The translations under genes were made by a program, and so were the position numbers. From NCBI RefSeq assembly GCF_004341395.1, contig NZ_SLXT01000008.1, positions 1-64,000 on the forward strand: 64,000 nucleotides of DNA, written 5' to 3'. The notes under the pieces are model-generated. The model ran no database searches and was not told the origin of the DNA. It saw only the letters and a list, made by a program, of their open reading frames with translations. Below are positions 9,533-50,449 of this stretch, piece by piece. The DNA is from Heliophilum fasciatum. GTDB lineage: Bacteria > Bacillota > Desulfitobacteriia > Heliobacteriales > Heliobacteriaceae. Position 1 is the stretch's first letter, and each line of letters begins with the position of its first letter.

Positions 9533-9676
9533 ATGGTGGGCCCCCATGGCGACAAGCTGAGCTAAGTTGTGAGTGTAGGTTATGCATAAAAAGGACATTC
9601 AAAAATACATCATATGGAAATTGCGCTTGTGGTATGCTACAATCAGAGCAAGCGATACTGTAAGGAGGGATGGTTT

Positions 9677-10561
9677 ATCGAAAGTGATGTTCGCATTCCC
9701 CAGCAGCATAAAGATATTTCGCTTCGCTCTATGTCCATGACTTTTCGCGGGGAAATCCTCCCGTTTTTCGGGTTGACCCTGCCGAAAGTGGTGGATGCCG
9801 TTAGCACACAAGCGCCACTGATTGAAGTTAAGAATCGGGACATGGATGTGGTTTTGGCACTCGAAGATAATACGCTGCTCCACATGGAATTTGAGTCCGG
9901 TGAGCCAACCATGGATGACCAAATTCGCTATGCTTATTATGACTTGAAACTATTTGCTGATCGTAAACAATCGATTCATCGCATTGTCATTTATGCCGCC
10001 GGTGTCCAAAAATCTCCGGAACCGCTGCACATCGGTAGCCTTTCCACGCATCAACATGTCATTCACTTGAGCCGTCATTTTGAAGGAGAACGTGAATTGG
10101 AGCAGATGCTCGTGAAAATCCGGCGTCATCAACGCCTTGACGCGCAGGACAAGCTGCGTATCATGCTCCTGCCCATGATGTTTGAGCGGCCGAGCGATCG
10201 TTCGCGCGCGGCTTGGACCGTCACGGAAGCGCTGGATACGGAAAAAACGGATGATGCCATGTACCTTATCGGCACAATGCTGGCCGCCAACTATAGCAAT
10301 ATTTTAGCCCCGGAAAAAGACAAGATTTTGGAGGTGCTCAGAATGGCTCAAATATTCGAAGAACTCTATCGCCATTTTGAAGAAAAGGGCATGGCAAAGG
10401 GTATGGAAAAAGGCATGGAAAAAGGCATTGAGAAAACCGCCATTGCCGCCTTAAAAAAAGGGGCTACCGCCAGTTTTGTTTCGGAAATCACGGGCTTACC
10501 CATTGAAAAAGTTAAAGAGCTGGAAGAGCAAACAAAACAGCCCGTGGAAACGAATTTGTAA
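9677..10561 (+). CDS. Rpn family recombination-promoting nuclease/putative transposase
   Basis: A PD-(D/E)XK-type protein of the Rpn/DUF4351-like group, present in many copies in some bacterial genomes and linked to recombination-promoting DNA cleavage. The catalytic pattern is visible as an aspartate in RDMDVVLAL followed by HMEFES (ExE). The C-terminal third carries the family's typical EKGMEKGMEKG tail repeats. The start is uncertain. An extended -10 (TGCTACAAT, 9635-9643) and a strong ribosome site (AAGGAGGG, 9662-9669) lie inside the longest ATG frame (ATG 9614), and the codon seven bases after the site is ATC 9677. ATG 9614 and ATG 9731 are the ordinary alternatives. Confidence 0.8.
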   Translation: MESDVRIPQQHKDISLRSMSMTFRGEILPFFGLTLPKVVDAVSTQAPLIEVKNRDMDVVLALEDNTLLHMEFESGEPTMDDQIRYAYYDLKLFADRKQSIHRIVIYAAGVQKSPEPLHIGSLSTHQHVIHLSRHFEGERELEQMLVKIRRHQRLDAQDKLRIMLLPMMFERPSDRSRAAWTVTEALDTEKTDDAMYLIGTMLAANYSNILAPEKDKILEVLRMAQIFEELYRHFEEKGMAKGMEKGMEKGIEKTAIAALKKGATASFVSEITGLPIEKVKELEEQTKQPVETNL

Positions 10562-26767: not shown

Positions 26768-28204
26768 ATGAAAAGAGAACACAACAAAGCATTCGGTCAG
26801 GGCAAAAAATCCAGTTTTTCGAAGCCCGCAGGATCATTTCGGAGTGAAAAGCCTTACGGCGGGCGTAGTGAAAAACCGTACGGTGCCGGCAATGAAAAGC
26901 CCTATGGCAACCGGAGTGAAAAGCCTTACGGCGGGCGCAGCGAAAAGCCCTACGGTGCCAGCAATGAAAAGCCCTATGGCAACCGAAGTGAAAAGCCTTA
27001 CGGCGGGCGTAGCGAAAAGCCCTACGGTGCGGGCAGCGAAAAACCCTACGGTAGTCGTGGCGAGAAGCCTTTTAACGCTCGCGGTGAAAAGCCCTTTGGT
27101 ACCCGCGGTGATAAACCCTATGGCTCACGCAGCGAGGGCCCTGCTGAACGCTCCTGGGGCGAGCGGGACGAGCGGCGCGGACCGCGGTTCAAACCAACGG
27201 GAGCGCCGGAAGAACGGCGTCAAAGCAGTGGCCGTACTGACTTTGGCCGCGGCGAAAAACGCCCCTATAAAGGCACAGAAGAGCGTCGTGAGGGCGCGCC
27301 TTCACGGCGGATCATGCCCCGCGACGAGTTCGCTCGGGAAGAATCACGGGAAACCTTTGCGCCTCGGCGCACTACCCGGCCGGTCATCGATGGCTCGGGT
27401 GTTCCTGTGCGCCCTGCGGTGGAAACCAACGAAGAAGAACAACGGGAAGATCTGCTGGAAGGTCGTCATCCTGTTCTGGCTGCGCTCAAAGCAGGACGGC
27501 CGGTCAACCGGCTTTTTGTTGCCAAAGGCGTACAGGAAGGTTCAATGCGGGAAATTCTGGCCGTCGCCCGTGACAAAGGGATACCGATCACGGAAGTGGA
27601 CCGCCGAGCACTAGATGCCCAAGCACCGTCACGGGGACACCAAGGCGTGATGGCGCAAGTTGCGCCTGTTCCTTATGTGGAAGTGGAAACCATCCTGGAG
27701 CGTGCCCAAAGCCGTGGCGAAGCACCCTTTGTCCTCATCCTGGACGGCATGGAAGATCCCCACAATGTAGGCGCCCTTTTACGCACCGCTGAATGCGCCG
27801 GTGTGCACGGTGTGATCTTACCGAAGCGTCGCGGCGTCGCCCTGACCAGCACCGTAGCCAAAGCAGCGGCCGGTGCGATTGAGCATATTCCGATTGCCCG
27901 AGTGACCAACTTAGTGCAAACCGTGGCCTATCTAAAAGAACAAGGTCTTTGGGTGATCGGCAGCGACAGTGAAGCGCCAGCGCCCTATCATGCCCAGGAT
28001 TTCACCGGGCCCGTGGCCATCGTCGTTGGCGGCGAAGGCAAAGGCGTATCGCGGCTCCTGCAGGAGAAGTGTGATTTTCTCGTGGCCATACCCATGGCCG
28101 GGCAAGTCTCCTCGCTCAATGCGTCCGTCGCCGGTGCCCTGTTGATGTATGAACGGGCACGCCAGCAAAATCAAAAAGCGACCTCACCTGCATCAACGAC
28201 CTGA
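26768..28204 (+). CDS. rlmB: 23S rRNA 2'-O-methyltransferase RlmB-type (SpoU family) with octapeptide-repeat extension
   Basis: A 478-residue protein, about twice the usual 245. The C-terminal 250 residues are a SpoU/TrmH methyltransferase: an L30e-like substrate domain (EGRHPVLAALKAGRPVNRLF), motif 1 DGMEDPHNVGALLRTAE, motif 2 VVGGEGKGVS and motif 3 IPMAGQVSSLNASVAGAL, forming the knotted AdoMet site. RlmB methylates the ribose of 23S rRNA G2251. Residues 26-121 are twelve tandem octapeptides of the type SEKPYGGR, followed by an Arg/Glu-rich stretch to about 215. The extension is probably disordered and RNA-binding; its job is unknown. Confidence 0.92.
   Translation: MKREHNKAFGQGKKSSFSKPAGSFRSEKPYGGRSEKPYGAGNEKPYGNRSEKPYGGRSEKPYGASNEKPYGNRSEKPYGGRSEKPYGAGSEKPYGSRGEKPFNARGEKPFGTRGDKPYGSRSEGPAERSWGERDERRGPRFKPTGAPEERRQSSGRTDFGRGEKRPYKGTEERREGAPSRRIMPRDEFAREESRETFAPRRTTRPVIDGSGVPVRPAVETNEEEQREDLLEGRHPVLAALKAGRPVNRLFVAKGVQEGSMREILAVARDKGIPITEVDRRALDAQAPSRGHQGVMAQVAPVPYVEVETILERAQSRGEAPFVLILDGMEDPHNVGALLRTAECAGVHGVILPKRRGVALTSTVAKAAAGAIEHIPIARVTNLVQTVAYLKEQGLWVIGSDSEAPAPYHAQDFTGPVAIVVGGEGKGVSRLLQEKCDFLVAIPMAGQVSSLNASVAGALLMYERARQQNQKATSPASTT
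26843..27130 (+). repeat. Twelve 24-bp coding repeats in rlmB
   Basis: Twelve in-frame 24-bp units encode (S/N/G)-E-K-P-(Y/F)-G-x-R-like octapeptides. The first six form two nearly identical 72-bp blocks (26843-26914 and 26915-26986), and a third block (26987-27058) is similar. The last three units have drifted. This indicates block duplication within the gene, with length variation between strains likely. Confidence 0.95.
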
Positions 28205-32943: not shown

Positions 32944-33025
32944 GCGCCGCTGCGTTACTGTACCTAAGTGCCTAACAATGTAGGCTAACTAATGAAAGAA
33001 TAAAAATATGGAGGAATCGCTTACC

Positions 33026-33400
33026 ATGAGTAAAATCGCTGAAATTATCGAAGCGGTGAAAGGCCTCACCGTTGTTGAACTGGCCGAACTGGTTAAAGCT
33101 TTCGAAGAAGAATTTGGCGTATCCGCCGCTGCTCCTGTCGCTGTCGCTGCTGCTGCTCCTGCTGCCGCTGCTGCAGTTGTTGAAGAGCAAACTGAATTCG
33201 ACGTTATCCTCACCGCTGCTGGCGACAAAAAAGTCAACGTCATCAAAGTCGTTCGCGAAATCACCGGTCTCGGCCTGAAAGAAGCCAAAGACCTCGTCGA
33301 TGGCGCACCGAAAGCCGTCAAAGAAAAAGTCAGCAAAGAAGACGCCGAAGCCGTCAAAGCCAAACTGGTCGAAGCTGGCGCTACTGTCGAAGTGAAGTAA
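33026..33400 (+). CDS. rplL: 50S ribosomal protein L7/L12
   Basis: A 124-residue L7/L12: N-terminal dimerisation domain, an Ala/Pro-rich hinge ([17 protein letters not shown]), and the C-terminal factor-binding domain with [19 protein letters not shown] 33026 is chosen because GGAGGAA ends ten bases upstream; an ATG at 33008 overlaps that site. Codon use is strongly biased, as expected for a four-copy stalk protein. A terminator follows. Confidence 0.98.
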
Positions 33401-49690: not shown

Positions 49691-50449
49691 GTGGGTCAGA
49701 AGGTTAACCCAAAAGGGTTACGGATCGGCGTAATTCGTGACTGGGATGCCAAATGGTATGCCGGCAAAAACTATGCCGACCTGCTGCATGAAGACATCAA
49801 GATTCGTAAATACATCAAGAAAAAACTTTTCGCAGCCGGTATCTCCCGCGTTGAAATCGAGCGGGCCGCCAACCGCGTAAAAGTGACCATCTACACTGCA
49901 AAACCCGGTATCGTCATCGGTCGAGGCGGCGCAGAAGTAGAAAACCTGCGTAAAGAGATTGAAAAAATGTCCGGACGCAGTGCCAACATCAACATCGCTG
50001 AAATCAAAAAGCCCGAACTGGATGCGCAACTGGTTGCTGAAAACGTAGCCGCGCAACTGGAAAAACGGACTTCGTTCCGCCGGGCCATGAAACAAGCTGT
50101 TGGCCGGACCATGCGCCTCGGTGCCGAAGGCATCAAGATCATGGTATCGGGACGCTTGGGCGGTGCTGAAATCGCACGGACCGAATGGTACAACGAAGGC
50201 AAAGTGCCTCTCCATACCCTGCGGGCCGACATCGATTATGCATTGGCTGAAGCACACACCACCTACGGCATCATCGGCGTCAAAGTCTGGATCTATCACG
50301 GTGAAGTGATCGGTAAAGGCCTGCGCGTCGAGCCGAAAGAAACGAACGAACGCAGCGAACGCCCTGAGCGTCGTGAGCGCCGTGACCGTGGCGACCGCGG
50401 TGGCCGTGGCGAGCGTCGTGCACCGGCTGCAGCGGAAGGAGGAAAATAA
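49691..50449 (+). CDS. rpsC: 30S ribosomal protein S3
   Basis: A 252-residue S3, part of the mRNA entry helicase. The KH domain holds [16 protein letters not shown], and the C-terminal domain contains [16 protein letters not shown]. The last 35 residues are an Arg/Glu/Gly-rich tail ([19 protein letters not shown]) not present in the standard 215-220-residue protein. Start is GTG 49691 with AAGGAGGG inside rplV. rplP begins two bases after the stop. Confidence 0.97.

Follow-up and report, generated by a model that had tools for sequence, protein, structure and literature searches.

A tandem octapeptide array in the basic, predicted-disordered N-terminal extension of a heliobacterial RlmB, a candidate RNA tether

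Sequences flanking the SPOUT domain range from under 20 to over 1000 amino acids in length, according to the available part of one study (PMC9508554). Basic extensions are described in print for YfiF and the eukaryotic members of COG0566B, being absent from others, and the portions of these sources at hand do not mention repeats. YfiF, an extended paralogue of RlmB, binds rRNA, tRNA and ncRNA in vivo, and the accessible text does not credit the extension with this binding (PMC11066096). Other RNA enzymes have comparable tails: the one of CYT-19 is highly basic, unstructured and thought to be a tether (PMC4211656), the one of RhlB is basic and disordered (PMC3814787), and the excerpts available from these papers report them as binding RNA non-specifically or acting as a tether. 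Literature searches on an extended or repeat-bearing RlmB and on heliobacterial disorder, with most subscription journals outside their scope, listed no such RlmB. Here, an rlmB gene with a long repeat-bearing N-terminal extension was analyzed in a window of 64,000 nucleotides, i.e., the whole stretch of Heliophilum fasciatum DNA under study, together with its counterparts in the same family and in the wider phylum.

An ordinary RlmB core behind a long extension

The gene and its parts were delimited as follows (residues are those of the predicted protein):

26768..28204, + strand: rlmB open reading frame, 478 amino acids plus stop, above the cut-off of TIGR00186
26768..26842, + strand: 25-aa lead starting with MKRE, net charge +6
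26843..27130, + strand: array of twelve 24-bp units encoding SEKPYGGR-type octapeptides, residues 26-121, net charge +9
27131..27433, + strand: Arg/Glu-rich, predicted-disordered stretch, residues 122-222, net charge +4
27449..28165, + strand: RlmB core, residues 228-466, from domain, profile, structure and fold matches
residues 229-303 of RlmB: SpoU_sub_bind (PF08032), from the domain search
residues 321-461 of RlmB: SpoU_methylase (PF00588), from the domain search

Judged from its sequence, the gene product is RlmB, the 23S rRNA Gm2251 methyltransferase, with an ordinary core. The protein scored 245.6 bits against TIGR00186 (RlmB; curated cut-off 160.15), in agreement with the name given to the gene in an earlier sequence-only reading of the window, and 223.1 bits against a second RlmB model, NF008386, which is under the cut-off of 366 set for that model. 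YfiF was rejected in favor of RlmB, as NF008117, which we take to be the YfiF model, gave 78.3 bits vs. a cut-off of 267. The L30e-like substrate-binding domain is followed by the SpoU/SPOUT domain, in the order found in RlmB, and the best solved relative was RlmB of E. coli (1gz0; sequence E 2.5e-54, fold E 3.1e-26), one chain of which was matched with a TMt of 0.94 over 166 columns and the two-domain chains with TMt of 0.62-0.65 and rmsd of 11-12. Residues N333, R339, E423, S449, and N451, presumably the SpoU catalytic and cofactor motifs, were invariant in an alignment of 34 homologues. The neighboring genes, identified by domain and profile searches, encode a Ribonuclease_3-domain protein (by its position, mini-RNase III), ThyX and a YacP-type NYN protein.

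A wrongly assigned start codon was considered and rejected. The array and the core share one open frame, the next in-frame start lies 182 codons downstream and has no obvious Shine-Dalgarno sequence, and the distal MKRE start resembles those of the three relatives from genus g5, being MKRE in G007 and G008 and MKRD in G004. The long form was therefore kept as our reading; an extra short form initiated at internal GTG codons may exist beside it.

The extension as a whole (222 aa) had a net charge of +19, a pI of 10.1 and a FoldIndex of -0.38, compared to a net charge of -1 for the core. Its charge is modest per residue (+0.09), and the Arg/Glu-rich half is nearly balanced, with +4 in 101 residues. 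In an AlphaFold2 model built from 34 sequences, the pLDDT of ten-residue blocks was 39-51 over residues 1-200, values that come with a shallow alignment in the extension and fit disorder without proving it; no secondary structure was assigned before residue 207, and most core blocks reached 90-98. The predictions thus bear out the disorder proposed in the sequence-only reading, and the extension is probably a long, floppy, positively charged front end in which the Arg/Glu-rich half could serve mainly as a spacer.

The twelve SEKPYGGR-type repeats that had been described at 26843-27130 proved exact and contiguous, filling the 288 bp in frame with 26768-28204, and the Arg/Glu-rich stretch described after them was likewise found. 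The statement that the array makes up the N-terminal half of the protein had to be narrowed, as it applies to the extension in full, with 222 of the 478 residues, and not to the array, which is confined to residues 26-121. Tandem Repeats Finder returned a period of 72 (2.9 copies, 91% match) as well as a period of 24 (8.7 copies), and the period-8 identity over residues 26-121 was 61/88, compared to 9.7 on average and at most 20 in 5000 residue shuffles; the periodicity is no product of chance. The first two 72-bp blocks share 92% identity, followed by a third block 83-85% identical to them and a fourth at 64-68%. Nine units have the core EKPYG and the last three have EKPFN, EKPFG, and DKPYG, i.e., one of the twelve departs at Gly and three anywhere in the core.

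A link to C2H2 zinc fingers, whose linker is TGEKPY with Cys and His ligands flanking it, was dismissed because the extension contains no Cys and the array no His. The array is single-copy: the window genome yielded no other SEKPYG array, and a search of 299 sampled genomes of the phylum (E 1e-5) matched only the window genome itself and one IF-2-like protein of another genome (G224), so a mobile or duplicated module was rejected as well. Among plasmid records 104 matched, none of them over more than 80% of the query, and in the best 10 of the 104 the match started no earlier than query residue 202, at the core. An open frame of 256 aa at 26844-27614 (+ strand), read in frame +1, runs across the array and was rejected as a gene, being most likely a by-product of a unit length divisible by three. 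Two further tandem repeats of the window lie in other frames: one at 10381-10436 gives EKGMEKGM-type repeats near the C-terminus of a 315-aa ORF (9614-10561, + strand), which we take, by eye, to be transposase- or nuclease-like, and one at 33123-33174 encodes an Ala-rich hinge, an ordinary feature, in a 130-aa ORF (33008-33400, + strand) that by eye reads like ribosomal protein L7/L12.

N-terminal leads of RlmB within and beyond the family

The window genome (G000) was the sole member of its genus compared, and eight further genomes share its family. The lead before the core measured 222 aa in G000, 188 in G007, 144 in G008, 87 in G004, 41 in G005, 32 in G003, 27 in G001, and 12 in both G002 and G006 (net charge +2 and +1). 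A lead that is net positive and FoldIndex-negative was thus present in all nine genomes, at lengths of 12-222 aa. According to the sequence-only reading, close relatives that all lack the extension would count against it; as worded this did not hold, since the exact array was absent from 8/8 of them but three carry basic extensions of 87-188 aa with another sequence. Those of G007 and G008 (genus g5) contain 45-bp arrays with a DRRDFRKGP-type unit, unlike SEKPYGGR, and for the G004 extension no 45-bp array was reported; strict copies of the motif numbered eight, six, and one in G007, G008, and G004, respectively. Copy number therefore changes fast between species of one genus, which supports, for a neighboring genus, the expectation of the sequence-only reading that repeat number should vary.

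In a tree of eight concatenated proteins g5 was joined with g3 (support 100) and G000 fell outside them (supports 71 and 63). The arrays of G000 and g5 look like separate expansions, because g3, the sister of g5, has only 12 aa. The extension of G000 was compared with those of g5 in nine shuffling comparisons, eight of which remained at shuffle level (66-480 of 500 shuffles scored as high); the one that stood out was the Arg/Glu-rich tail of G000 vs. G007, with 2/500 shuffles as high. As 8/9 comparisons were unremarkable, common ancestry of these extensions is not claimed. Among 12 genomes, BchZ (TIGR02014) was matched in 8/9 family members at E 1e-117 to 1e-125 and in none of three outgroups, all matches being under the curated cut-off, with two of 14 control genomes matching too and the unmatched ninth member (G003) being 87% complete. 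This distribution contributed to taking the family for the Heliobacteriaceae.

Outside the family, the best-match open frames of 52 genomes were shorter (at most 346 aa from stop to stop), and the N-termini read in 21 of these (L011-L031) showed no comparable extension, the longest lead being about 30 aa and basic in appearance (L017). A sample of 139 genomes of the phylum, 138 of which had an RlmB match, yielded frames of at least 340 aa in G000, G004, G113, G067, G151, G165, and G184. The 580-aa frame of G113 was rejected as an extension, since it probably reflects read-through in GC-rich DNA; its possible starts lie at the core or 50 codons upstream of it. The frames of G067, G151, G165, and G184, together with that of G160, have a similar look of GC-rich read-through: possible starts lie no more than 50 codons from the core, with others farther away in some of them; G061 has a possible Arg-rich lead of 36 aa.

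A survey of 398 genomes (383 matched), in which only the best matches were followed, pointed to another family through G440 (genus g280; L045), with a lead of 83 aa and net charge +12 in which an unrelated unit of 24 bp is repeated 3.3 times (1378-1457 of L045). All five genomes of this genus (the other loci being L092-L095) have a lead of 73-87 aa, with a net charge of +10 to +13 in the four of five computed, and frames of 325-339 aa, compared to 245-284 aa in the remaining 56 of the 61 genomes of their family. All five leads abound in Lys, Arg, and Gln; the 24-bp repeat was seen in two of them (G440 and, by eye, G445) and is missing from those of G469, G486, and G498. What recurs across lineages is positive charge and low complexity, and the sequence of the unit does not recur, which suggests that charge and floppiness matter above exact sequence.

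Constraint on the octapeptide and competing readings

The array had been called young in the sequence-only reading. This holds only in part, as the silent sites have diverged, with pS of 0.33-0.65 among the three best blocks. Blocks 1 and 2 differ by five synonymous changes and one non-synonymous change, and block 3 differs from either by 8-10 synonymous and 2-3 non-synonymous ones. Over all 66 pairs of units, pS was 0.75 and pN 0.18 (ratio 0.24), with a ratio of 0.09 for the EKPYG codons and 0.51 for linker positions 1, 7, and 8. Codon-pair differences in the core amounted to 127 synonymous and 42 amino-acid-changing ones among the 12 units, and to 71 and 0 among units 1-9. None of 2000 neutral simulations was as conserved as the observed array, a rough control, as the star tree used ignores the real duplication history. 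Because many silent changes accumulated while the amino acids were held, the peptide is under selection; by these codon comparisons, the array is more than a young expansion, and strong constraint at the protein level acts on its EKPYG core.

These figures bear on the view that the extension is near-neutral and tolerated, having grown by tandem duplications that kept the frame at a permissive terminus, and that it is harmless and nothing else. Lead lengths that vary from 12 to 222 aa within one family, units that differ between lineages and an array missing from all eight family relatives are what it would lead one to expect. The low pN/pS over the array and in EKPYG, the lack of amino-acid-changing core differences in units 1-9, the simulations (with the star tree only) and a charge sign kept in 9/9 family genomes speak against it, and simple tolerance is weakened because EKPYG is constrained; we consider it unlikely.

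A mainly self-associating role, in which the array would act as a sticker region gathering RlmB, and perhaps other assembly factors, in RNA-rich condensates, draws on the regular composition of the array: its 96 residues include 12 aromatic, 9 Arg, and 19 Gly residues, and each of the twelve octads has one aromatic. Composition alone does not predict behavior, however, and aromatic residues are nearly absent from the extensions of g280, so stickers are no shared feature, and this role seems rather improbable to us. That a specific partner protein (e.g., a 50S assembly GTPase, helicase, or RNase), instead of RNA, docks on the repeats would fit the much stricter conservation of EKPYG compared to the linker positions, as in a short linear motif, and a disordered RhlB tail that also binds the protein RraA in the part of that report available (PMC3814787), but it is hardly credible, as the relatives carry other units, with which the interface of the partner must then have changed, and as neither a second SEKPYG array in the genome nor more than one weak protein match in 298 other phylum genomes was found.

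A proposed sequence-loose tether and its known parallels

The reading that we prefer, with the chances for and against it about evenly balanced, is that the 222-aa tail may be a sequence-loose, multivalent basic tether of RlmB to rRNA or to assembling 50S particles. In its favor are the net charge, the predicted disorder, the constraint on EKPYG, the net-positive leads across the family and in g280 and, as precedents, the basic tails of RhlB and CYT-19 and the binding of rRNA in vivo by YfiF. On an otherwise ordinary RlmB, it would act as a non-specific, multivalent RNA tether, in which every unit supplies Lys together with Tyr or Phe, 9/12 units also supply Arg, and Gly, Pro, and Glu serve as spacers. 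Through weak contacts to phosphates and bases of rRNA, the tail would concentrate the dimeric enzyme locally at nascent 23S rRNA or at early 50S particles, and the folded core would meanwhile find its target guanosine. Copy number would grow and shrink by in-frame slippage or unequal recombination, because selection across lineages would act on charge, aromatic spacing, and length, not on one sequence. The RNA binding, the tethering, a benefit for methylation, and the mode of copy-number change are what we infer here. Against a tether stands the finding that none of the relatives examined has the exact array, and so do the modest net charge, the nearly balanced Arg/Glu-rich half and the units that depart from the EKPYG core. 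Moreover, a long tail is dispensable in four of the nine family members (12-32 aa) and in G005 (41 aa), as short leads suffice there; five of nine genomes with at most 41 aa count against a general need for it.

The family offers a small natural experiment, i.e., a conserved RlmB core behind leads of 12-222 residues, some with unrelated repeats and net positive in 9/9 genomes, which makes it testable whether the disordered tail of an RNA-modifying enzyme acts by its charge and length and not by its sequence.

Elsewhere in the window, ribosomal protein S3 (49691-50449, + strand) has a tandem repeat at 50355-50425 that encodes an Arg-rich segment before its conserved C-terminal EGGK. The segment was present in 9/9 family genomes (S3 of 247-252 aa) and absent in the five outgroups examined (219-220 aa). 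Since it parallels the RlmB extension, in a way that is suggestive only, one could speculate, with very little confidence, that, as a general strategy, heliobacterial ribosome-assembly and ribosomal proteins gain evolvable Arg-rich disordered segments (at the N-terminus of RlmB and just before the C-terminus of S3), with the repeat number of RlmB as a tuning knob. Jointly, such segments would maintain an RNA-rich assembly phase common to these proteins and would be the bacterial equivalent of the low-complexity tails of the nucleolus.

Among the known systems, RlmB is not known to carry a long extension (E. coli chain of 253 aa, matched from residue 12), whereas 222 aa precede the core here. 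YfiF and the COG0566B proteins likewise have a basic extension, and the window protein differs from them in being an RlmB whose extension is built on a tandem array. Another case from the same phylum is the G224 protein (L096, from 1225), IF-2-like as read from its open frame rather than by a family search: it too has a long, repeat-built, low-complexity N-terminus on an apparent translation protein, and it matched the array with 29% identity over about 70 aa (E 3.7e-6), but its units (RPQGQGQQ) are unrelated to SEKPYGGR. The tails of RhlB and CYT-19 belong to different enzymes and sit at a different terminus, and they are reported to bind RNA or to tether, whereas for the RlmB tail we infer RNA binding; what they have in common with the RlmB extension is a basic, unstructured (here, as predicted) terminal tail on an RNA enzyme.
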